Shown here piece by piece: positions 26,606 through 51,711 of a stretch of 64,000 bases of DNA. Where the stretch lies: the NCBI GenBank assembly GCA_026707585.1, contig JAPOWQ010000035.1, positions 1 to 64,000 of the forward strand, in the 5' to 3' direction. Position 1 is the first letter of the stretch. Every line of letters begins with the position of its first letter. A model generated the notes under the pieces. That model saw only the letters and a list, made by a program, of their open reading frames with translations. It was not told where the DNA came from and did no database searches. Position numbers and translations under genes: made by a program. This stretch comes from Chloroflexota bacterium. GTDB taxonomy: Bacteria; Chloroflexota; UBA11872.

Positions 26606-26731
26606 CGGCGGCGAGCGAGCGACTCTGAGTGAAAGCGCCACGTGAGCTTGAACGTTGGCCGCCCTCGGCTCGCTGCCGCAACGGCGCCACCTCGTAGGTC
26701 CCAGCCCGTGGGAGTGATCACGTGCAGACTG

Positions 26732-28348
26732 ATGCTTCGCCTGGGCGTCACCGTAGCCCCGGGGATTCTGTGCGTCGTTGCCCTGGCGGCCTGCGTCGAA
26801 ACCAAGGTAGTAACCAGGGAAGTTCCGGTGGAGAGGATCGTTGTTCAGGAGGTGGCGGTCGAGAAGGTCGTGACCAGAGAGGTCGAGCGGGTTGTCCGCG
26901 TTGAAGTCCCGGTCGAGCGCGTGGTGATTCGAGAGATCCCGGTTGAAAAGGTGGTGACCAGGGAAGTCGAAAAGATCGTTCGCGTCGAAGTCCCCGTCGA
27001 GAGAGTGGTGACCAAGGAGGCGCCGGTCGAGAAGATCGCTACTGCGGAAGCTACGGAAACGGTCGAAAGGGTCACGGACGACCGAATCTGTGAGACCAAT
27101 CGGACCTCGGTCGTCGAGCGAGTCGTGAATCGAGAGTTTCCTTCGGTATTTGGAGCATGGAGTCACGTCCTTCTGAACTTGCCGATTCCAGAGGACAAAT
27201 GGGAGCTCGAATACGTCGAGAAAACTCGGGCACATCACGATCTTTTCTGGGCCGGAATGGGTCACGGAGTGCAGTGGGCCTCAACGCCGCATGGAGTGAG
27301 AGTTGTTGGACCGTGGCCGTTTGCCCAGGAGCAGAAGAATCGGCTGCACGCTCAGAATCCAAGCTGGCTTCATCTTGTTCCCATTTACCACTACGGCGCC
27401 CACCCGGAGTTGTATCCGCAAGACTGGCCATATTGGCTCCGGGATGAGTCGGGGAACCGAGTCGCAGACGAAGGTTGGGGTGAACTCCTCATCGACTACA
27501 CACATCCCACAGCGCAAGACCATTTCGTCCAACAAGCAATTGCCGTTGCCCAGTGCGGCGTGTTTGACGGAATTTTCATGGATTGGTGGACGCAAGAAGA
27601 GGACTCGAATGAGGAGATAGCGCACCTTTATCACGGCAACAGGATTAGCGCCGAAGTGTCAATACTCCGTCGAATCCGCGAAGCGGTCGGTGACGACTTT
27701 CTGATTGTCGTCAACTCTCGAACAGAGAAGATCCCGCTCTCGGCTCCCTACGTCAATGGAGCCTTCATGGAAGGACATCGCAGGCATTCGCGAGAGTATC
27801 TGACCGAAGTCGAGAGCACTCTGCTATGGGCTGAAGGGAACTTCAGATTCCCCCAGGTCAACAGTTATGAGGCATGGAGCATCCTGGAGGAACCGCTCAA
27901 CTCCCCACGCAATCAGCAATGGATGCGTGTATTCACGACCCTGACCCTGACGCATTCGAACGGCTACGTGTCCTACGTGATCGGGTTTGACGGCGCGCTC
28001 GTGCATCAGCACGGCTACGAGGTCTGGGAAGGACACGCAGCTGAGCACGCGGCCGGCGAGCCCCATGAGCACACGCACGAGAAGAGCTGGCATTCCTTCT
28101 GGGACGCGCCGCTTGGGAAGCCCGTGGGCGGAAGCGAGAGCAAGGGACAGCTCTACCGTGGGCGGCCAGGTCTGTTCCTCCGCGAGTTCACGAACGGGTG
28201 GGCGGTGTACAACCGGAGCGGAAGCGCGCAGCAGATCGAGCTTCCAGAGGAGTCGACCGGAGTGCATAGCGGCGTCACCGGGACACGGCACACGCTTGCC
28301 GATTTAGACGGGGAGATCTACATCAAGGGCGGTCGCACCGACCGCTAG
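26732..28348 (+). CDS. Lipoprotein with a Val-Glu-Lys repeat linker fused to a glycoside-hydrolase-like TIM barrel
   Basis: After a lipobox (LCVVALAAC) come about 100 residues of repeats of the type VEKVVTREVERVV. A catalytic-looking domain follows: WLHLVPIYHYGAHPELYP, LLIDYTHPTAQDHF and, most telling, CGVFDGIFMDWWTQEED, a pattern seen in putative glycoside hydrolases (GHL15/GH114-like). Asp in MDWW and a later Glu are candidate catalytic residues. The same linker occurs in the two solute-binding proteins at 41.2 and 43.3 kb. Base composition is less GC-rich than neighbours. The start is ATG 26732; GTG codons further upstream exist. Confidence 0.75.
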   Translation: MLRLGVTVAPGILCVVALAACVETKVVTREVPVERIVVQEVAVEKVVTREVERVVRVEVPVERVVIREIPVEKVVTREVEKIVRVEVPVERVVTKEAPVEKIATAEATETVERVTDDRICETNRTSVVERVVNREFPSVFGAWSHVLLNLPIPEDKWELEYVEKTRAHHDLFWAGMGHGVQWASTPHGVRVVGPWPFAQEQKNRLHAQNPSWLHLVPIYHYGAHPELYPQDWPYWLRDESGNRVADEGWGELLIDYTHPTAQDHFVQQAIAVAQCGVFDGIFMDWWTQEEDSNEEIAHLYHGNRISAEVSILRRIREAVGDDFLIVVNSRTEKIPLSAPYVNGAFMEGHRRHSREYLTEVESTLLWAEGNFRFPQVNSYEAWSILEEPLNSPRNQQWMRVFTTLTLTHSNGYVSYVIGFDGALVHQHGYEVWEGHAAEHAAGEPHEHTHEKSWHSFWDAPLGKPVGGSESKGQLYRGRPGLFLREFTNGWAVYNRSGSAQQIELPEESTGVHSGVTGTRHTLADLDGEIYIKGGRTDR

Positions 28349-29758: not shown

Positions 29759-31717
29759 TCAGTACGGTCTACACCCGACGCCGTAGCCCTCGGGGGAGAG
29801 GCTCTTGCAACGGTAGTACTTGCCATCCCGATACTCCAGGACGGGCCACTCGGGATCCACTCGGCACCAAACGACACCGTCCGGTCCCCGTGTGCAGATG
29901 GGCATGTGGTAGCCAGCGAATCGATCACCGCCGCTCGTGCCCCTGCTCGGGCTCGCTCGAGGCCGGCCACCTGAGGGGCCACCGCCTTGCCCGCCGCTTG
30001 ACGATTGGCCGCCATCATTCGCGGCCTCTGGGGCCAGCGGGCACGCGTCGCTTCGCACCAGGCATCCATATTCCCCATACAGCACACCCTCATGCGTGCC
30101 GTCCAGGAAGTCCTTGACCCTGTCATCGGTCACGACCTGAGTCGCAATTCGCTGAGCGAGTTCGGGATACGCACCCCGTGCGACCGCCACCGCATAGACC
30201 GGGAGGTAGTTCGGACTGTCCGCCGGGTCCGGCGTCGAGTCCGGCGTCGAGTCCGGCGTCGGGACCGGAGTTGAGGCCGGCGTCGGGTCCGGCGTCCAGT
30301 CTCGAGTCGGGTGCGGTATCGAGTCCTGGGTTGACACCGGGCCGGTCGCGCCGCCCGGCGAGTCATCCTTCGGCGTGAATGCGACCCGCAGACAGTCCGC
30401 TTCCCAGCGCCAGCGTTGCCAGGCGTCAATCTGCCAGAGAGTCACAAAGACCGTGCGCGTGGCCCGATCCACGAAATTCAAGCTGGCGCCGTCCGTCGTG
30501 TAGATGTTGCGGTCCATTGGGTCCCAAGCCGGCGCGCACTGATCCAGAATCGCGAAATAAACCTGGGTTGGCAGCGACGGTATGGTGACCGCATCGTCCG
30601 TCGTCCGCACGCTGCCCGGGGTTCCCAGCCGTCCAGACGGCACAGCCCGTAGACAATCCGCTTCCCAGCGCCAGCGTTGCCAGGCGTCTACCTGCCAGAC
30701 CGTGACGAACGTCGTCCGCGTGGCTCGATCCACATCGTTCAGGCTGGAGCCGTCCGACGCGTAGATGTTGCGGTCCGCCGGATTCCAGCCCGGTGCACAG
30801 AAATCAAGAGCCGCCGAGTAGTCCTGGGATCGCAAGCCCGGCGCGCCAATCGGATGGTCCGTTACGCGAACGGTGTCCAGCGTCGCTACCCGACCAGGCG
30901 GCGCGGCCCGCAGGCAATCCGCTTCCCAGCGCCAGCGTTGCCAGGCATCCACCTGCCAGACGGTGACGAACGTCGTCCGCTCGGCTCGAGCCACGTCGTT
31001 CAGGCTGGCGCCATCCGTCGCGTAAATGTTGCGATCGGTCGGGTCCCAGCCCGGCGTGCACTGATCGAGGATCGCGGAATAGACCTGGGGCGGCGGGTTC
31101 GGCGCGGTAATCGCGTCATCCGTCGTCCGCGTGCCGCCCGGCCTCCCCAGCTGGTCAGACCGCGCGGCCTGTAGACAGTCCGCTTCCCAGCGCCAGCGCT
31201 GCCAGGCGTCGGCCTGCCAGACGGTCACGAACGCCGTGCGCGTGGCCCGAGCCACGTCGTTCAGGCTGGCGCCGTCCGTCGCGTAGATATTGCGGTCGGC
31301 CGGGTCCCAGGCGGTGGCGCACTGATCAAGGACCGCGGAATAGCCTCGGGGCTGCCGGGTCGCTGTCGTGATCGCGTCGTCCGTCGTCCGCACGCTGCCC
31401 GGCGTCCCCAGCTGGTCAGCCCGCGCGGCCTGTAGACAATCCGCTTCCCAGCGCCAGCGCTGCCAGGCGTCGGCCTGCCAGACGGTCACGAACGCCGTGC
31501 GCGTGGCCCGAGCCACGTCGTTCAGGCTGGCGCCGTCCGTCGCGTAGATATTGCGGTCGGCCGGGTCCCAGGCGGTGGCGCACTGATCAAGAACCGTGAA
31601 ATAGACCTCACGCGACAGACCTGGTGTGTTGATCGGATCATCAGCTGCCTGTCCGGCTTCCAGCGTCATCACCGCTCCAAGCAGCGCAGCCAGCACCACC
31701 GCCGCGGCTCGACGCAC
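29759..31717 (-). CDS. Exported protein with five 87-residue repeats, a Pro-Thr linker and an 'ACPLAPE' module
   Basis: The 652-residue product starts with a signal peptide (AAAVVLAALLGAVMTLEAG). Residues about 37-455 hold five repeats, each with LDQC, WDPADRNIYATDGASLNDV, FVTVWQ, DAWQRWRWEADCL and two Cys. A linker of repeated TPDSTPDSTPDP follows. Residues about 505-570 (DFLDGTHEGVLYGEYGC, then ACPLAPE) resemble part of the HExxH protein at 10946. A Gly/Ser tract and a Cys-rich tail (ICTRGPDGVVWC and others) close it. Repeated paired Cys suggest disulfides outside the cell. Function is unknown. Confidence 0.75.
   Translation of the reverse strand: MRRAAAVVLAALLGAVMTLEAGQAADDPINTPGLSREVYFTVLDQCATAWDPADRNIYATDGASLNDVARATRTAFVTVWQADAWQRWRWEADCLQAARADQLGTPGSVRTTDDAITTATRQPRGYSAVLDQCATAWDPADRNIYATDGASLNDVARATRTAFVTVWQADAWQRWRWEADCLQAARSDQLGRPGGTRTTDDAITAPNPPPQVYSAILDQCTPGWDPTDRNIYATDGASLNDVARAERTTFVTVWQVDAWQRWRWEADCLRAAPPGRVATLDTVRVTDHPIGAPGLRSQDYSAALDFCAPGWNPADRNIYASDGSSLNDVDRATRTTFVTVWQVDAWQRWRWEADCLRAVPSGRLGTPGSVRTTDDAVTIPSLPTQVYFAILDQCAPAWDPMDRNIYTTDGASLNFVDRATRTVFVTLWQIDAWQRWRWEADCLRVAFTPKDDSPGGATGPVSTQDSIPHPTRDWTPDPTPASTPVPTPDSTPDSTPDPADSPNYLPVYAVAVARGAYPELAQRIATQVVTDDRVKDFLDGTHEGVLYGEYGCLVRSDACPLAPEAANDGGQSSSGGQGGGPSGGRPRASPSRGTSGGDRFAGYHMPICTRGPDGVVWCRVDPEWPVLEYRDGKYYRCKSLSPEGYGVGCRPY
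30372..31609 (-). repeat. Five tandem coding repeats with an exact 261-bp period
   Basis: The marker CGCTTCCCA (+ strand) recurs at 30398, 30659, 30920, 31181 and 31442, always exactly 261 bp apart. This keeps the reading frame (87 codons) of the repeat protein. Units 1 and 2, at the high-coordinate end, are nearly identical in DNA, which points to recent unit duplication. Unit 5 is the most diverged. Confidence 0.95.
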
Positions 31718-34014: not shown

Positions 34015-35736
34015 TCAGGCGACGGTCAGCGCGCCTTCTTCGTGCAACTCCTGCAGCGTGTCGGCCACCAGCGTGCGGACGGCCGTTGCCGACTTACCGA
34101 CGGCGGTGCCCCACGTGTCGATTGCGTCGTCCACGATTTGCTGGCCGGTTCGGGACCCATCCAGCAGACGCAGCAGCGACGTGGCGGCGATGGAGAGGAA
34201 GTGCGTCTTGGTGCTGTCGCCGTCCGGGATCTCCACCAACGTGGCTGGCCGCAGCACGTCTTCCTGGTCGTTGAGCATGTAGGGCTGCCACTGCACGCCC
34301 TCGGCCCACGTCGGTATGCCGCCGAGCAGTTGCTCCACGGTCACCGGCTGGTAGTCCCGGGCCTGCCGTTCCTCTTCAAGAAAGTCCTCCAGTTGCGCCT
34401 GTTGCTCGTCGCTGAGTTCGAGTTCAAAGTTCTGGTAGATGATCTTGAGCTGCTCGGGACTGAACCCGCCGGCGTGCTTGAGCTTGAGGTGGCTGGTGGC
34501 GCCGGGGCTGCGTGATACCCCGGCGGCAATCAGCGAGAAGGCCTGTTGCAGCGAGAAGCTCTGGGACGGGTCGACGATACGCCGGGCCTGCCAGAACCAA
34601 TCGTCGCGGTTGCGTTCGCCGTGGTACCAGTGCAGGGCCAGCTCCAGGAAGTCTTGCGCTGTCTTGCGGTACTCGCTGTCGTACCAGTGCATGGCCAGGG
34701 GTTCCACCTCGGGCTGGCGCAGCGCCGCGGTCAGGGTCAGGGCGGCTCGAATTGCCCCATTCATGGCCAGCGCGATCCCCGTGGATAGCACCGGGTCGAC
34801 GAAACAGGCGGCGTCGCCGCACAGCATGTAGCCGGGACCGTAGAAGGACTTGCAGAAGAACGACCAGTCGCTGTCCATCTCCACGCGGTCCGAGATCCAT
34901 TCCGCCTGCTCAAGCAGGCGCAGCAATTCCGGGGTAATCGCCACGTTGTCCAGGAAGAACTTCACTCGCTGGTCCGGCTTCATCCCGCGCACGTGGCTGG
35001 GATCGGTCACAAAGCCCACGCTGCTGATCTCGCCGGCCAGCGGGATATGCCAGAACCAGCCGGCCTCGCTGGACACGATGTGCAGGTTGCCGTCGTCGTT
35101 GAGCGTCAGATCCGGGTAGACCTCGGAGAGCTTGCGGGCGCCCCGGTAGTAACCGGAGAGCGAGACGTGCCGCATCTCCTCGTTGAACTCGCGCATCTTG
35201 AAGCGCGTCCCGAGAAGTGAGGACTGGCCCGAGCAGTCCAGCACGTAGCGAGACAGGAGCTTCCCTTCAGCGCCGTCGGGACCACGCCAGCGCAGCCCGG
35301 TCACGCGACCGCCCACCTGGACGGTGTCGGTGACCCGGGTTTCCTCCCACACGGCGGCCCCGCAATCCTCGCTGTGATCCAGCAGGATCTTGTCGAAGTC
35401 GGCCCGCCGCACCTGGAACGCAAAAAAAGCGTCGTCGATCATTTCCGAAAAGCGCAACGTCCACGGTTCGCGGCTACGGCCCCAGATATACGTGGCCCCG
35501 TACTTGCGAACAAAGCCGGCCTGCAGGACTTTCTCGGTGATCCCCATCTGGTCAAGCGCCAGGAAAGCGATAGGCAGCAGCGACTCGCCAATGTGCTCAC
35601 GGGGGAAGCGTTCGCGCTCGAGGACGGCGACTCGGAACCCGGCCCGTGAGAGCAGCGTAGCGGCCGTGGATCCGGCCGGACCGCCGCCGATGACGGCGAC
35701 ATCAACTTCGTAGCCATCGACCGGGCGAGTGCTCAT
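34015..35736 (-). CDS. Flavin-dependent halogenase with a C-terminal PqqD-like domain
   Basis: The 573-residue product has the FAD motif VIGGGPAGSTAATLLSRAG (15-33) and the family block RERFPREHIGESLLP. The conserved lysine region FVRKYGATYIWG has Lys78. The halogenase WxWxIP appears as WFWHIP (227-232), and the Fx.Px.Sx.G motif as FVDPVLSTG. These separate it from plain monooxygenases. Residues about 515-573 (LLRLLDGSRTGQQIVDDAID, then VRTLVADTLQELHEEGAL) look like a PqqD/RiPP-recognition winged helix, unusual for the family. It overlaps the TPR gene by 4 bp. It needs FADH2 from an unlinked reductase. Confidence 0.85.
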   Translation of the reverse strand: MSTRPVDGYEVDVAVIGGGPAGSTAATLLSRAGFRVAVLERERFPREHIGESLLPIAFLALDQMGITEKVLQAGFVRKYGATYIWGRSREPWTLRFSEMIDDAFFAFQVRRADFDKILLDHSEDCGAAVWEETRVTDTVQVGGRVTGLRWRGPDGAEGKLLSRYVLDCSGQSSLLGTRFKMREFNEEMRHVSLSGYYRGARKLSEVYPDLTLNDDGNLHIVSSEAGWFWHIPLAGEISSVGFVTDPSHVRGMKPDQRVKFFLDNVAITPELLRLLEQAEWISDRVEMDSDWSFFCKSFYGPGYMLCGDAACFVDPVLSTGIALAMNGAIRAALTLTAALRQPEVEPLAMHWYDSEYRKTAQDFLELALHWYHGERNRDDWFWQARRIVDPSQSFSLQQAFSLIAAGVSRSPGATSHLKLKHAGGFSPEQLKIIYQNFELELSDEQQAQLEDFLEEERQARDYQPVTVEQLLGGIPTWAEGVQWQPYMLNDQEDVLRPATLVEIPDGDSTKTHFLSIAATSLLRLLDGSRTGQQIVDDAIDTWGTAVGKSATAVRTLVADTLQELHEEGALTVA

Positions 35737-41185: not shown

Positions 41186-42868
41186 ATGGTTACGCGGAGA
41201 CAGCTACTTCGCAGGGGCGGTACCGCCGCCTTAGGGATTTCTGGCGCCGTAGCGCTGGCCGCCTGCGGCGAGACGCAAGTCGTCACCAAGGAAGTCCCTG
41301 TCGAGAAGATCGTGGTCCAAGAGGTTGAGGTCGAGAAGATCGTCACGCAACAGGTCGAAAAGGTCGTAACGCAGGAGGTCGAAAAGGTCGTCGAACGGGA
41401 AGTTCCGGTCGAGAAGGTCGTCGAGGTTCAGAAGGTTGTCGAAGTTCCGGTCGAGAAGGTCGTCGAAGTCGAGAAGGTCGTCACCAAGGAAGTCCAGAAG
41501 GTCGTGGAGAAGGTCGTCCAGGTCGAGAGAGCGCCCGAGCGCATAACCGCAGTCATTCGGCTGGCCAACGACCACTCGTCCGGCCCGCGCGGAGCAGCGA
41601 TGCTCTGGGCGCTGGACAGGCTCCAGGCAGAGTTGCCGCACATCGCGATCAAGTTCGAGCCACAGAATCACCTGTACATGGAGTCGTTCGCGATTCATAT
41701 CGCCGCCGGCACGCAGCCTGAGTTGGGGCTGCTGGACGGCGGGTTCTTCAATGGATGGGTGCATCGCGGCGGATTCGCGCGCATTGACGGTGCGCTGAGC
41801 AAGCATCCGGACTGGGATCCCACCAAGTGGTATGCCCCGCCGGACGAAATGACGGTCGGTCAATTCGACGACGACCGCGCCGCCCGCCCGGCTCCGCACA
41901 CCACGGGATACGGCGGAGTCGCCCAGTTCGGGATGCCCTACCAGGGCAACATCAACGGGAAGATATTCAACTTCACGCTGCTGGAGGAGAAGGGCATCCC
42001 CATGCCGGTGGAGGGCTCGTTCCACTTGGAGCGTGAGGCTTGGGACCTGTACATGCAAGCCTCAGACCCGGAGACCGGCACTTGGGGTCTGCGGATGGCG
42101 TCCAATGCCTGGATCGTTTGGGGAAGTTGGGCGCGCGCCTTGCAAAACAGCGGGAATCACATGTACCGCGCGCCCGACCAGTTGCACTGGGACATCTTCA
42201 ACGACGGTGGCGACCGCGGCTTCGCCTACGCGGTGAACAGCGTGTTGGAAGGCGTGGCTCCACCGTTCGACCAGCTCCAGCAGATCGCCGGCGAGTTCGG
42301 GGATCCGTTCTCGGCCGGCAAGATGGCCACCTACTGGACCGGTGGCGGCGTCGGCAGCACCATAACGCGCGTCAAGGATCGCTTTTCCTGGGGTCTTGGA
42401 CCCATCGAGGAAGGTGACCGCGGTCCGGCGCCGCACCACTTCACCAACCAGGGCCAGTACTGCACCGTCACGGCGGAGAAGAACGGCATCGTGGAAGAGT
42501 GCACCGAGGCGCTACTCTACTTCGCCGGTCCGGCGGTTCAGGGCCGCATCGCCGTCGACCGCGGCTCGCTGCCCATGCTCAAGACGGTGATCGAGTCCGA
42601 GGAGTTCAAGGCCGGGCCGCCCGCGAACCACGGGTACTACAAGACCTGGATGGACAAGACGGACCATCACCACTGGCAGAACGGCCATCCCAACTGGTGG
42701 GAGTGGTACGAGTCCTTCCGTGCGGCTGACCCGCCCTTCATCGGCGACATGTCGATCGAAGAGGGAATGCAGCACATCATCGCCACCTCCGACCGTGTTC
42801 TTGAGAACACCAAGGCGGAGTACGACGAGTGGAAGGCTTGGATCGACGCTCTGCCGCCTTCGTCCTAA
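41186..42868 (+). CDS. Extracellular solute-binding lipoprotein with Val-Glu-Lys linker, copy 1
   Basis: The 560-residue product starts with a Tat-like signal and lipobox (VTRRQLLRRGGTAALG, then AVALAAC). About 95 residues of VEKVV-type repeats lift the domain from the surface. From about residue 125 it is a family-1 ABC solute-binding fold (IKFEPQNHLYMESFAIHIAA, EFGDPFSAGKMATYW, ECTEALLYFAGPAVQGR). A carbohydrate ligand is likely from context. No permease or ATPase gene is adjacent. It has its own promoter and terminator. Confidence 0.87.
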   Translation: MVTRRQLLRRGGTAALGISGAVALAACGETQVVTKEVPVEKIVVQEVEVEKIVTQQVEKVVTQEVEKVVEREVPVEKVVEVQKVVEVPVEKVVEVEKVVTKEVQKVVEKVVQVERAPERITAVIRLANDHSSGPRGAAMLWALDRLQAELPHIAIKFEPQNHLYMESFAIHIAAGTQPELGLLDGGFFNGWVHRGGFARIDGALSKHPDWDPTKWYAPPDEMTVGQFDDDRAARPAPHTTGYGGVAQFGMPYQGNINGKIFNFTLLEEKGIPMPVEGSFHLEREAWDLYMQASDPETGTWGLRMASNAWIVWGSWARALQNSGNHMYRAPDQLHWDIFNDGGDRGFAYAVNSVLEGVAPPFDQLQQIAGEFGDPFSAGKMATYWTGGGVGSTITRVKDRFSWGLGPIEEGDRGPAPHHFTNQGQYCTVTAEKNGIVEECTEALLYFAGPAVQGRIAVDRGSLPMLKTVIESEEFKAGPPANHGYYKTWMDKTDHHHWQNGHPNWWEWYESFRAADPPFIGDMSIEEGMQHIIATSDRVLENTKAEYDEWKAWIDALPPSS

Positions 42869-43304: not shown

Positions 43305-44969
43305 ATGGTTACGCGGAGACAACTACTTCGCATGGGTGGTACCGCCGCCCTGGGGATTTCCGGCGCGGTAGCGCTGGCCGCTTGCGGCGAGACGCAGGTC
43401 GTCACCAAGGAAGTTCCCGTCGACAGGGTCGTGGTCAAAGAGGTTGAGGTCGAAAAGATCGTCACGCAACAGGTCGAAAAGGTCGTCACGCAGGAGGTCG
43501 AAAAGGTCGTCGAAAGGGAAGTTCCGGTCGAGAAGGTCGTCGAGGTTGAGAAGGTCGTCGAGGTCCCGGTCGAGAAGGTCGTCGAGAAGGTCGTGACCAA
43601 GGAAGTCCAGAAGGTCGTCGAGAAGGTCGTCCAGGTCGAGAAGATGGCCGAGCGCCCACGCGCGGTCCTTCGATTTGCCCACGACCACTCGTCCGGTCTG
43701 CGCGGCAAGCAGATGCAGTGGGCGTTGGACCGCTTCGCGCAGGTCCGCCCGGACATCGCCGTGAAGTTCGAGCCCCAGAACCACATGTTCCAGGACTCGT
43801 TCGGCATCCAGCTTGCCGGTGGGACACAGGCGGAATGCGCCTTGCTGGACGGCGGCTTCTTCCACCAGTGGGTGGACAAGGGTGGTTTCGTTCAGATCAA
43901 CAGCTATCTGGACAAGCACCAGGACTGGAATCCGCGGAACTACGGGATGTGGCCGGATCAGCACACGATCAACTTCGCCAACAAGCACCCCATTCCCTGG
44001 AACGATGGCATCACGGGCCCGTCGTTCGGTTTGCCGTTCCAGGCTGGCATGAACGGCGTCCTCTACAACTACACGCTGTTCGAGGCGGCGGGAATCGAGC
44101 AGCCGTCAGCCGGCAACTGGGGCATCCTGACCGACTTTCTCGACGCCGCGCGCGCATTGACCGATCCGGAGAACGATCAGTACGGCTTCCGCTCGTCGAG
44201 CTCGATGTGGGGCTTCTGGGCCGGCTGGGGCCGCGCGCTGGCCGACGGCAACGAAGAACTGCTCTACTACGACGAGAACGCCTCGCGGATGACGATCTTC
44301 GACGACGGCGCCCACCGGGCGCACGACTTCGTCGTGAACGCCATCTGGGACGAGGGCATCTCGAATAAGCTGGAGGATTCCAAGTTCCTATCCGGCGAAT
44401 TCAGCGACCCGTTCTCCGCCGGCAAGATGGGCGTGGCCAACTTCGGCAGCGCCGGGAACTACGTGGTGCGCATTGCCGGGCGATTCGACTGGGGCATCAA
44501 CGTCCAGCCGGAGGGCCCGCGCGGCGAGGCGCCAATTCACACCTCGCAGCAACCGCACCTGGTAACGAACGCCGCCGAGTCGAACGGTGTCATGGAACAG
44601 GCCGTGGACATGCTGGTGTTCTTTGCTGGCCCCGAAGTTCAGGAACGAGCCGCGATCGATCGAGGCTTCGTTCCCGTGAACCTTGAAGTGCATGCCGGTC
44701 CGGCGATGCAGGTGGCGCCCCCGCAGGGCCACAACCACATCACCCGCATCCTGACCGGACGCAACGACCACCAGCATTGGCAGTCGGCGCACCCCAGCTG
44801 GTGGGAGTGGTTCGATGGTTGGCGTAAGGGCTCCGACCGCTCCTTCATCGGCGAAGTGACGCCGGAGGAAGGTCGCGAGGCGCTCTTGGCTGCCTCGAAC
44901 AACATCCTCGAGAACCAGCACGACGCCTGGGTCGACTACAAGAACTGGGCAGGCACCCTGACCAGCTAG
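43305..44969 (+). CDS. Extracellular solute-binding lipoprotein with Val-Glu-Lys linker, copy 2
   Basis: The 554-residue paralogue of the 41186 gene has a near-identical signal peptide (VTRRQLLRMGGTAALG, lipobox AVALAAC) and the same repeat linker. The binding domain has diverged (VKFEPQNHMFQDSFGIQLAG, EFSDPFSAGKMGVANF, WQSAHPSWWEWFDGW). The signal and linker are conserved more than the ligand-binding part, suggesting a new ligand. ATG 43305 is chosen over an upstream frame to 43197. No transporter partners are nearby. Confidence 0.87.
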   Translation: MVTRRQLLRMGGTAALGISGAVALAACGETQVVTKEVPVDRVVVKEVEVEKIVTQQVEKVVTQEVEKVVEREVPVEKVVEVEKVVEVPVEKVVEKVVTKEVQKVVEKVVQVEKMAERPRAVLRFAHDHSSGLRGKQMQWALDRFAQVRPDIAVKFEPQNHMFQDSFGIQLAGGTQAECALLDGGFFHQWVDKGGFVQINSYLDKHQDWNPRNYGMWPDQHTINFANKHPIPWNDGITGPSFGLPFQAGMNGVLYNYTLFEAAGIEQPSAGNWGILTDFLDAARALTDPENDQYGFRSSSSMWGFWAGWGRALADGNEELLYYDENASRMTIFDDGAHRAHDFVVNAIWDEGISNKLEDSKFLSGEFSDPFSAGKMGVANFGSAGNYVVRIAGRFDWGINVQPEGPRGEAPIHTSQQPHLVTNAAESNGVMEQAVDMLVFFAGPEVQERAAIDRGFVPVNLEVHAGPAMQVAPPQGHNHITRILTGRNDHQHWQSAHPSWWEWFDGWRKGSDRSFIGEVTPEEGREALLAASNNILENQHDAWVDYKNWAGTLTS

Positions 44970-49099: not shown

Positions 49100-50266
49100 A
49101 TGAGCGCCAACATCACAACCGAACGCGAAGCCACCGAGCTCCTGAGCCGGCTGGTCGCCACGCCCAGCGTCACGCCCGAAGTCGAAGGCGGCACCGGCGA
49201 AGGCGCGATGGCCGACCTCGTTGAGGAGTTCGCCCGCTCCATCGGCGCGCAAGTCGGCCGCCAGGAGGTTTTTCCGGGTCGGGAAAACGTGATCTGCACC
49301 ATTGCCCCCGACGCAGCCGGGCCGCACCTGATGCTGGAAGCGCACATGGACACCGTGGCGCTGGGGCCCATGACCAACGGCCACCAGCCCTACATGGACA
49401 ACGACGGCCGGCTGCACGGCCGCGGCTCCTGCGACACCAAGGGCTCGCTGGCGGCCATGCTGCTGGCGCTCAAGTGGGCCGCCGGGGTATCGGAGCCGGC
49501 CGGTCCGCTCACCGTGGCCGCGGCCGTGGACGAGGAAACCGGCAGCGCCGGCGCCAAGGCGTTGCCCGAATCCGGGATCAGTGTCGACGGCGCAATCGTG
49601 GGCGAACCCACGAGCTTGGAGGTGGTTCGTTCCCACCGCGGCGGTCGCTATTGGCCTCTCATCACTCACGGTACCGCCGTCCACAGTTCCACGCCCGAAC
49701 TCGGCGACAACGCCATCCTCCGCATGGCCGACGTCTTGCACGTCCTCCGAGAGGAATACGGCCGGCGCCTGTCCGGCCGCACGCACCCGCTGGTCGGCAA
49801 CTCGTCCTTCTCCGTCGGCATCATCAAGGCCGGAACCTCATTCAACATGGTTCCCGACCTTTGCGAAGCCATCATCGAGCGCCGCCAGATCCCCGGCGAG
49901 TCCGTCGACGACGTGGAAGCGGAACTCGAGGAAGTTCTCAACATCGCGCGCCGCCGCCATCCCGACCTGCGTGTGGAAGTGCAGGCACCGTTTGTCTTCG
50001 GGGACGTGCTGGACACTCCCGCGGACGCCCCCATCGTGAAGGTCGTGCGAGACGCCGTTACCGACGTCTGCGGATCGGCCAACGTAATCGGTGTGTCCTA
50101 CGGCTCCGACGCTGCAACATTGGCCGCCGCCGGTATCCCCAGCGTGCTCTGCGGCCCCGGCGACATCGCCTACGCGCACAGCGCCGACGAGTTCGTGCCC
50201 ATGGCGGAAGTCGTCCAGGCGGCCGAGATTTACGCGCGCGCCTGGAAGCTCTTCGCCGCCGCCTGA
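49100..50266 (+). CDS. M20-family metallopeptidase (ArgE/DapE/acetylornithine deacetylase type)
   Basis: The 388-residue product has the zinc ligands of M20 enzymes: His-x-Asp in MLEAHMDTVALG, Asp in GRGSCDTKGSLA, Glu-Glu in AVDEETGSAG, and the late His in IAYAHSADEF, with a dimerisation domain between. It hydrolyses an N-acyl amino acid or related amide; the substrate is not fixed by sequence. The stop overlaps the sulfatase ATG (TGATG), so the two are co-translated. Confidence 0.92.
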   Translation: MSANITTEREATELLSRLVATPSVTPEVEGGTGEGAMADLVEEFARSIGAQVGRQEVFPGRENVICTIAPDAAGPHLMLEAHMDTVALGPMTNGHQPYMDNDGRLHGRGSCDTKGSLAAMLLALKWAAGVSEPAGPLTVAAAVDEETGSAGAKALPESGISVDGAIVGEPTSLEVVRSHRGGRYWPLITHGTAVHSSTPELGDNAILRMADVLHVLREEYGRRLSGRTHPLVGNSSFSVGIIKAGTSFNMVPDLCEAIIERRQIPGESVDDVEAELEEVLNIARRRHPDLRVEVQAPFVFGDVLDTPADAPIVKVVRDAVTDVCGSANVIGVSYGSDAATLAAAGIPSVLCGPGDIAYAHSADEFVPMAEVVQAAEIYARAWKLFAAA

Positions 50267-51711
50267 TGCCGTCCACGGCCGCCGCCGGGCGACCGAACAT
50301 CGTCCTGGTCATCACCGACCAGCAGCGCTACGACACCATTGCCGCTCTCGGTCATCCCCACGTCGACACACCCAACCTCGACCGGCTGGTCCGCGAAGGC
50401 GTCAGCTTCGATCAGTGCCACGTAACAGCCGCCTCCTGCGTGCCTGCTCGAGCCAGCCTGTTCAACGGCCTCTATCCCCACACCACTGGCGTAATGCGCA
50501 ATGGCTGCGAGTGGCGGCGCTCCTGGGTCGAGCAACTGGCCGCCTCCGGCTACCACTGCGTCAACGTCGGCAAGATGCACACCGTTCCATTCGAGACGCC
50601 GCTCGGCTTCCACGAGCGCTACGTCGTCGAAAACAAAGACCGGTTCCTGGATGGCCGCTACTACTTCGACGAGTGGGACAAGGCTCTGGCCGCCCGCGGC
50701 CTCGTCAAGCAGCAGCGGGAGCTGTACCGCCAGCGCCCCGACTACCGCGACGCCATGGGCGCCTTTACCTGGGACCTTCCGGCGGACATGCACAGCGACA
50801 ACTTCGTCGGCGGCTTGGCCCGCTGGTGGGTGGACACCTACCCCACCACCCAGCCGCTCTTCCTAGAAGTCGGCTTCCCTGGCCCGCATCCTCCGTACGA
50901 CCCAACGCCCGAGGCGCTGGCCCCCTACCTGGTCCGCGACCTGCCCATCCGCCCGGTCTCACAGGCTGATCTGAACGGCCAGCCCGAGGCGCTGCGCGTC
51001 ATGCGCGAGCACAACACCGAGGTCGACCACGACTCCGTCGTCCACATCGTCGATCCGCCGCTGGAGTCACGCCACCGCCAACGGGCGCACTACCTGGCCA
51101 ACGTGACGATGATCGACACGCAGATGGGCGAACTCATGGACGCCCTGGAACGCAACGGCTACGCCGACGACTGCGTGGTCATCTTCACCTCCGACCACGG
51201 CGACTGCCTCGGCGACCACGGCCACATCCAGAAGTGGACTATGTACGACACGATCACCCGCGTCCCCTGCGTCGTCTGGTCGCCGAACCGTTTCGCCGGC
51301 GGCCGCCGGATCGACAACCTGATCCAGTGGTTCGACCTGGGCCCCACGATCCTGGAACTCGCCGGCTGCCAGCCGGACGCGTCCATGGAAGCCCGCTCAC
51401 TCCTCCCGGCACTCAATGGTGGCCAAGCCCCGCATCGCGACTACGTCTTCACCGAACAGGGCCGCGACGACGGCAACGGCCTGCACGTCGACCTGGTCAC
51501 TGCCGTCCGCAGTCAAACCTGGAAGCTCGTCCACTTCCTCGGCGAGGACGACGGCCAACTCTTCAACCTCCAGGACGACCCGTACGAAGAACGCAACCTT
51601 TGGAATGACCCGCTGGCCGCACCCGCCCGCCGCGAACTCCTCGACGCCCTGCGCGACTGGCGCCTATCTAGCGGCGTCACCACCGCCAACTGGGCCGCGG
51701 ACGCCCGCTAA
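50266..51711 (+). CDS. Sulfatase (arylsulfatase/choline-sulfatase-like, Cys type)
   Basis: The 481-residue product shows the metal site PNIVLVITDQQRYDT and the formylglycine motif Cys-Val-Pro-Ala-Arg at 58-62 in TAASCVPARASLFNG. It also has GKMHTVPFET, PHPPYDP and FTSDHGDCLGDHG. Cys58 would be oxidised to formylglycine by an FGE not in this window. There is no signal peptide, so it acts in the cytoplasm on a taken-up sulfate ester. Context suggests desulfation of a sugar or amino-sugar derivative. Confidence 0.93.
   Translation: MPSTAAAGRPNIVLVITDQQRYDTIAALGHPHVDTPNLDRLVREGVSFDQCHVTAASCVPARASLFNGLYPHTTGVMRNGCEWRRSWVEQLAASGYHCVNVGKMHTVPFETPLGFHERYVVENKDRFLDGRYYFDEWDKALAARGLVKQQRELYRQRPDYRDAMGAFTWDLPADMHSDNFVGGLARWWVDTYPTTQPLFLEVGFPGPHPPYDPTPEALAPYLVRDLPIRPVSQADLNGQPEALRVMREHNTEVDHDSVVHIVDPPLESRHRQRAHYLANVTMIDTQMGELMDALERNGYADDCVVIFTSDHGDCLGDHGHIQKWTMYDTITRVPCVVWSPNRFAGGRRIDNLIQWFDLGPTILELAGCQPDASMEARSLLPALNGGQAPHRDYVFTEQGRDDGNGLHVDLVTAVRSQTWKLVHFLGEDDGQLFNLQDDPYEERNLWNDPLAAPARRELLDALRDWRLSSGVTTANWAADAR

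Follow-up and report, generated by a model that had tools for sequence, protein, structure and literature searches.

The closest described relatives of the enzyme studied here are the GH168 endo-fucanases (Fun168A, Fun168D and Fun168E, the Muricauda enzyme 9nhf, and PbFucA), and for FunA two acidic residues are reported to be essential (excerpt of PMC10778895). Its front end is of the type found in Chloroflexota solute-binding protein (SBP) lipoproteins (SBP_bac_1, SBP_bac_8, SBP_bac_5 and OpuAC), in which the same signal peptide, lipobox and type of Val-Glu-Lys-Val (VEKV) tether precede a ligand-binding domain, whereas the cargo here is a hydrolase-like barrel. Other lipoproteins have, at the same place and probably in the same role, Ala/Pro/Thr-rich linkers, which are rich in Ala and Pro where the VEKV linkers are charged and rich in Val. 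On the VEKV linker itself, a literature search reaching few subscription journals returned nothing.

We analysed a window of 64,000 nucleotides from a Chloroflexota bacterium (contig JAPOWQ010000035.1). One open reading frame of its forward strand (26732-28348) begins with MLRLGVTVAPGILCVVALAAC-VETKVVTREVPVERIVVQEV... and carries the barrel motif FDGIFMDWW further on (Table 1). The first-pass annotation had seen here a linker of the solute-binding-protein style attached to a TIM-barrel enzyme, and this fusion is real: a lipobox with Cys21, a linker of 94 residues and a GHL15 barrel follow each other in one frame. The motif itself (27563-27589) lies outside the interval 26732-27150, which holds the signal peptide, the linker and the junction. 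The start codon of the gene is unsure, a GTG at 26714 being the alternative. The lipobox LAAC occupies residues 18-21, and LAAC or MAAC is present in all ten orthologues, the window's included. From the signal peptide, lipobox and Cys, the enzyme is a predicted lipoprotein, and its lipidation is likewise a prediction. A twin arginine precedes the lipobox in 8 of the 10 GHL15 orthologues, as in many SBPs, and is missing from the window's copy and from L034; Tat export of the orthologues that carry it is possible.

Table 1. Coordinates of the features discussed (window positions, unless a genome and contig are given).
Feature	Position	Strand	Remarks
GHL15 lipoprotein gene	26732..28348	+	start may be GTG 26714
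Signal peptide, lipobox LAAC at its end	26732..26794	+	Cys21 codon 26792-26794
Val-Glu-Lys/Arg linker, 94 residues (22-115)	26795..27076	+	28-residue repeat
Junction DDRICETNRTSVVERVVNR	27077..27133	+	resembles the start of poribacterial sister proteins just past their signal peptide
GHL15 (PF14885) TIM barrel and C-terminal beta domain	27134..28345	+	GH168-like fold
D284 codon	27581..27583	+	aligned with the catalytic Asp of Fun168A
E347 codon	27770..27772	+	aligned with the catalytic Glu of Fun168A
SBP 1	41186..42868	+	lipobox Cys codon 41264-41266; VEKV linker 41267-41530
SBP 2	43305..44969	+	lipobox Cys codon 43383-43385; VEKV linker 43386-43646; SBP_bac_1 and SBP_bac_8
Sulfatase domain PF00884	50293..51366	+	ORF 49474-51711, also SGSH_C
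L199 linker passing the IMCp cut-off	G011:C15 1201-1503		
L276 linker passing the IMCp cut-off	G013:C45		

The linker of the enzyme consists mainly of Val (34%), Glu (21%) and Lys plus Arg (18%). At a lag of 28 residues it matched itself with 59% identity (compare with 39% for the 99.9% limit of shuffled sequences), and the period of its DNA is 84 bases. When all six-frame open stretches of at least 100 amino acids in the window were scanned as 60-residue pieces, those with at least 65% V/I/E/K/R began only at the enzyme and at the SBPs at 41 and 43 kb. The case against the fusion put forward in the first-pass annotation was a linker confined to SBPs elsewhere, with this gene a chimera of assembly. 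The second half of that case fails: we found no point in support of a chimera of linker and barrel, and the same lipobox-linker-barrel architecture recurs in 9 of the 12 other genomes of the genus (0 of 6 in the sister genus), with barrels 87-91% identical, so that such an artefact can be rejected with near certainty. In eight of these nine genomes, as in the window, the gene shares its contig and strand with an orthologue of SBP 1 at a distance of 14-20 kb; in the ninth the two genes are on separate contigs. Two of the three genus genomes without an orthologue gave no match, and the third gave only a paralogue with leucine-rich repeats.

We then compared the front ends. For each of 25 linker genes of the genome, 22 residues of the signal peptide and 32 residues of the linker were scored against the ten GHL15 orthologues; L024 (no lipobox by our rule), L006 (in-frame stop), and L022 and L027 (second hits) were left out. 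The two SBPs of the window came first (173.5 for SBP 2 and 169.4 for SBP 1; next best 130.8), which upholds the tie between the linker of the enzyme and these two proteins drawn in the first-pass annotation. As low-complexity linkers can converge, this argument is carried by the short signal peptide, which taken alone gave 13.1 and 12.7 identical residues out of 22 (next best 10.9, 10.2 and 10.1). The linkers of SBP 1 and SBP 2 share 93% of their nucleotides (dS 0.24), in contrast to bodies that are 40.5% identical in amino acids with a dS of 1.14; such near-identical 5' ends ahead of divergent bodies look like homogenisation of the front end. SBP 1 scored slightly under the Pfam cut-off for SBP_bac_8 (25.6 compared with 27 bits), and a scan of 20 window ORFs brought up no ABC permease. 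A flavoprotein resembling Trp_halogenase (138 bits; 34015-35736, reverse strand) is encoded between the enzyme and the SBPs, and the reverse strand at 29759-31717 encodes a protein with roughly five tandem copies of a repeat of around 80 residues (CATAWDPADRNIYATDGASLNDV...WEADCLQAAR).

Which other domains carry the linker depends on where one looks. A linker query of the genome gave 28 matches at E 1, or 26 genes once two double hits were merged, and L158 and L166 were added through the SBP search, making about 28 linker genes, among them L006 with its in-frame stop. By Pfam, their cargo was SBP_bac_1, SBP_bac_8, SBP_bac_5, SBP_bac_6 or OpuAC, and apart from SBPs it was GHL15, a vWA/YfbK-like protein (L024) and DUF4349/DUF11 (L028); L011 and L013 had no Pfam match and are SBPs by likeness only, and L020 passes SBP_bac_1. 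L024 (G000:C36) has a hybrid linker, with short VEKV stretches inside an Ala/Pro-rich region. Outside the genus, all six linker proteins submitted to Pfam were SBPs (L059 from the sister genus, L065 from the order and L066-L069 from other families of the phylum), and in the five genomes outside the family (L065-L069) the linker was on SBPs only. The idea that the linker also serves other domains thus holds in this genome, while the six proteins assigned beyond the genus agree so far with the first half of the case against the fusion. Across the phylum, at least 23 of 400 genomes had the linker at E 0.001 (12 of the genus, counting that of the window, 6 of the sister genus, a single one of the order and 4 in the rest of the phylum), a figure that is a floor, since at most 13 candidates were scored per genome with a low-complexity query.

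Looking at the barrel, we obtained 41.9 bits on the Pfam family GHL15 (PF14885, cut-off 27). The first 17 Foldseek matches (E 1.8e-15 to 7e-12) comprised 11 chains titled GH168 or endo-1,3-fucanase, four of PbFucA and two of a Planctomycetota protein (9f9v), the titles of the last six naming no family; from rank 18 onwards alpha-amylases and dextranases appeared. A profile of 27 relatives matched PbFucA (E 7e-14) and 9nhf (E 1.3e-9), which bears both names, GHL15 and GH168; its match to Fun168A (8ya6; E 5e-4) extended over a part of the barrel. D284, the Asp of FDGIFMD, and E347, the Glu of AFME, aligned with D221 and E279 of the 8ya6 chain, and their spacing of 58 is that of D206 and E264 in FunA; it is from this spacing that we take Fun168A to be FunA. 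The enzyme thus shares with the GH168 endo-fucanases the fold, the GHL15 family and the two catalytic acids, but it is only 12-17% identical to structures of this type (TM-scores by target 0.57-0.65) and has a lipoprotein tether, and its activity is a prediction. Two other assignments were considered. For GH114/GH191, GH114 appears as the molecule name of two PDB entries whose titles give PbFucA, and no other such case occurred among the 5 sequences listed for the profile or the 50 Foldseek rows shown; Cwp19, which surfaced under the name GHL15, belongs to GHL10 according to an excerpt of its own paper (PMC5765458).

The enzyme is likely to act on sulfated glycans that contain fucose, because of the GH168 resemblance and of 32 sulfatase matches in the genome, where we also found two alpha-L-fucosidase matches. 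The sulfatase of the window supports, without proving, the sulfated-glycan reading, and sponge glycosaminoglycans contain both fucose and sulfate (PMC6306507, in part). Since identity is 12-17% and the TM-scores are of the order given above, fold and context allow no more than a guess at a fucan as substrate.

Where did the barrel come from? Relatives were gathered via two peptide patterns, and the best 80 of 92 corresponded to 78 loci, assigned by record title to Candidatus Poribacteria (59), Chloroflexota (13) and Acidimicrobiia/Actinomycetota (6). The barrels of the poribacterial and the Acidimicrobiia/Actinomycetota proteins are 33-61% identical to that of the enzyme. Among these 78 loci the linker precedes the barrel in nine, which are those of the nine genus genomes, and in none of the 59 poribacterial ones. 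The N-terminal parts of the poribacterial proteins are unlike that of the enzyme: leucine-rich-repeat-like in 47 of the 59 loci by a simple pattern, or a plain signal peptide in others. In 4 of the 6 Acidimicrobiia/Actinomycetota loci we saw by eye a lipobox-like Cys and a tether rich in Ser/Thr/Pro or Ser/Asp. Other Chloroflexota GHL15 paralogues have leucine-rich repeats or a different N-terminal part; a third type, joined at the same junction, is seen in L084 / L040. The poribacterial chromosome OX639973.1 has at least six GHL15 loci (L096, L102, L106, L130, L132 and L134), four of them, by eye, behind leucine-rich-repeat-like sequence.

In a midpoint-rooted tree of 73 rows, from which six fragmentary or frameshifted loci of the 78 had been dropped (L100, L132, L133, L139, L146 and L153), the ten linker-bearing proteins and the paralogue L084 were sister (100/99) to five poribacterial proteins, and this whole group was nested inside the larger poribacterial set. 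L084, which has no linker, was not placed outside the linker-bearing group, that group standing alone in 46% of bootstrap trees. The five sisters have a plain signal peptide, with a lipobox in 0 of 5, and join the Chloroflexota sequence directly past the linker (E/D-x-I/V-C...VER). As a plain signal peptide is joined at the same place in these sisters, the enzyme is probably an acquired secreted protein that was refitted with an SBP front end. The donor would be poribacterial or related, with some uncertainty both in its identity and in the direction of transfer, because the tree has a midpoint root and samples only relatives picked up by the two peptide patterns, the top 80 of 92. The host bacterium is probably a sponge dweller; the sponge association of these lineages we take from the literature, not from record titles. 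Gene transfer among sponge symbionts, including that of GH33 and of repeat proteins, has been described (PMC8163846, in part).

We next looked at how linkers are distributed over SBPs. The 23 SBP_bac_1 matches of the genome comprised 13 with a VEKV linker, 7 with an Ala/Pro/Thr linker, 1 with another and 2 with no lipobox by our rule; for the seven SBP_bac_5 matches the numbers were 1, 2, 1 and 3, the rule having missed L184 (SBP_bac_5; VEKV by eye) and L176. One SBP type was particularly informative. The body of L199 (G011) is 91% identical to that of L185, yet it follows another signal peptide and a VEKV linker of 101 residues, at the place where 9 of the 10 SBPs of this type have an Ala/Pro linker of 49-55 residues. 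Similarity between the L199 and L185 DNA begins within three bases of the body, and G011 also has an Ala/Pro version of this type (L194). A similar VEKV front end was found on the same type in G013 (L276), in a gene truncated where the contig ends. Across a 16-SBP tree, two or more switches of linker type are needed, and L007 (VEKV) and L161 (Ala/Pro) come out as sisters at 100; this number of switches is not beyond chance, shuffled labels giving as low a value in 56-60 of 500 cases. Since a single SBP type can have either a VEKV or an Ala/Pro linker, the VEKV linker appears, as judged from sequence, to act as an exchangeable tether that is swapped with Ala/Pro/Thr linkers in SBPs.

The constraint on the linker is ordinary. 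Its dN/dS was 0.17 in the enzyme (0.08 for the barrel) and 0.25 in SBP 1; two Ala/Pro/Thr sets gave 0.32 and 0.11 (10, 8 and 11 chosen rows for the SBP sets), the 0.32 of the L161 set including, and being affected by, the exchanged linker of L199. VEKV linkers were therefore not seen to be more strongly constrained than those of the Ala/Pro/Thr type. These values bear on the shape of the linker, which the first-pass annotation had imagined as a membrane-anchored rod. A rigid helical or beta linker, presenting both kinds of cargo, enzymes and binding proteins, at a constant distance beyond the envelope, would agree with the regular 28-residue repeat, with the purifying selection and with the nearly fixed length of the SBP 1 linker (91-93 residues in 11 of 11), and there is a weak hydrophobic moment at the helical angle of 100 degrees (z 2.5 for SBP 1, 2.2 for SBP 2 and 1.3 for the enzyme). 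However, AlphaFold gave no secondary structure and a pLDDT below 50 for residues 1-115 of the enzyme (24-34 over residues 21-110, with no DSSP element) when 310 of its 538 residues reached 90, in an alignment where only 10 of 59 rows had the linker; the prediction for the SBP (mean pLDDT 28.6) was uninformative with two alignment rows only. Prolines at five places in the enzyme linker, the Ala/Pro linkers that replace it in SBPs, and a constraint not clearly above theirs also speak against a rod, which we regard as unlikely, and the either/or use of the two linkers on SBPs suits a flexible tether. What stands of the proposed shared display system is that several types of cargo use the linker; the most plausible reading is the usual anchoring of a lipoprotein, through a tether that is unusual and exchangeable.

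The tolerance of SBPs for linkers of very different length and make-up could also be taken to mean that the fusion is inert, the front end having been captured by chance and the linker merely carrying the anchor, and the L080 orthologue has indeed lost 10 residues of its linker. But the linker is kept in 10 of 10 enzyme orthologues, the window's included, a single residue class fills 74 of its 94 columns and its dN/dS is 0.17, which makes an inert fusion quite improbable.

A last alternative came from the alveolins, eukaryotic cytoskeletal proteins whose repeats join in binding via EKIVEVP-type motifs; the IMC1g copies EKIVEVP, EKIIEVP and EKVVEVP are jointly needed for IMC1c binding (excerpt of PMC11708024). 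If VEKV repeats associated in the same way, they could gather SBPs and enzyme in patches. The EKIVEVP-type motif is the point of likeness, and two linkers of the genus pass the alveolin cut-off: that of L199, taken alone, passes Pfam IMCp (PF12314; 34.5 compared with 21.1 bits, with 0 of 9 shuffles matching), and the similar one of L276 passes at 25.6 bits with its neighbours. In contrast, the three linkers of the window have no such match, IMCp being absent among the families listed for them at E 10. The cut-off was passed in only 2 of 19 family genomes, and 1 of 14 control genomes passed it as well. The motif E[KR][IV][VI]EVP occurred in 1 of the 28 linker proteins examined in the genome, of which L006 was read as far as its stop, and the swap with Ala/Pro linkers speaks against a special function. 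Adhesive linkers are thus very unlikely, and the IMCp matches more likely stem from a simple repeat having converged on the motif. The wider picture, in which sticky Val-Glu-Lys tethers from about 28 genes would form a surface mesh holding binding proteins and a matrix-cutting enzyme side by side, seems just as unlikely; were it true, genes would join the mesh by capturing an SBP front end.

Taken together, these data lead us to an explanation that we hold to be fairly probable, namely that an acquired GHL15/GH168-type hydrolase with an SBP-type front end is tethered to the cell and cuts a sulfated matrix glycan. A secreted hydrolase of this type would have come from a poribacterial or related source, and its original signal peptide would have given way to the 5' end of an SBP gene like those at 41 and 43 kb, which brought a signal peptide, a lipobox and the Val-Glu-Lys tether. 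After export the protein would carry a lipid on Cys21 and stay anchored on the outer side of the membrane, where the 94-residue tether could give the barrel a reach of at most about 34 nm when fully stretched (0.36 nm per residue). Using D284 and E347, the barrel may cleave a matrix glycan that bears sulfate and probably fucose, and the products would remain near the SBPs of the cell, in a possible coupling to uptake. The tether itself would be an exchangeable spacer of the kind that replaces Ala/Pro/Thr linkers.

The locus is a clear natural record, with its junction still visible, of how a bacterium may build a surface enzyme, taking the cargo from another lineage and copying the front end from a neighbouring transporter gene. 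It shows that the tethers of lipoproteins can be swapped like cassettes. A GH168-like branch that is numerous in Poribacteria is also present in these Chloroflexota, and it may let sponge symbionts eat sulfated glycans.
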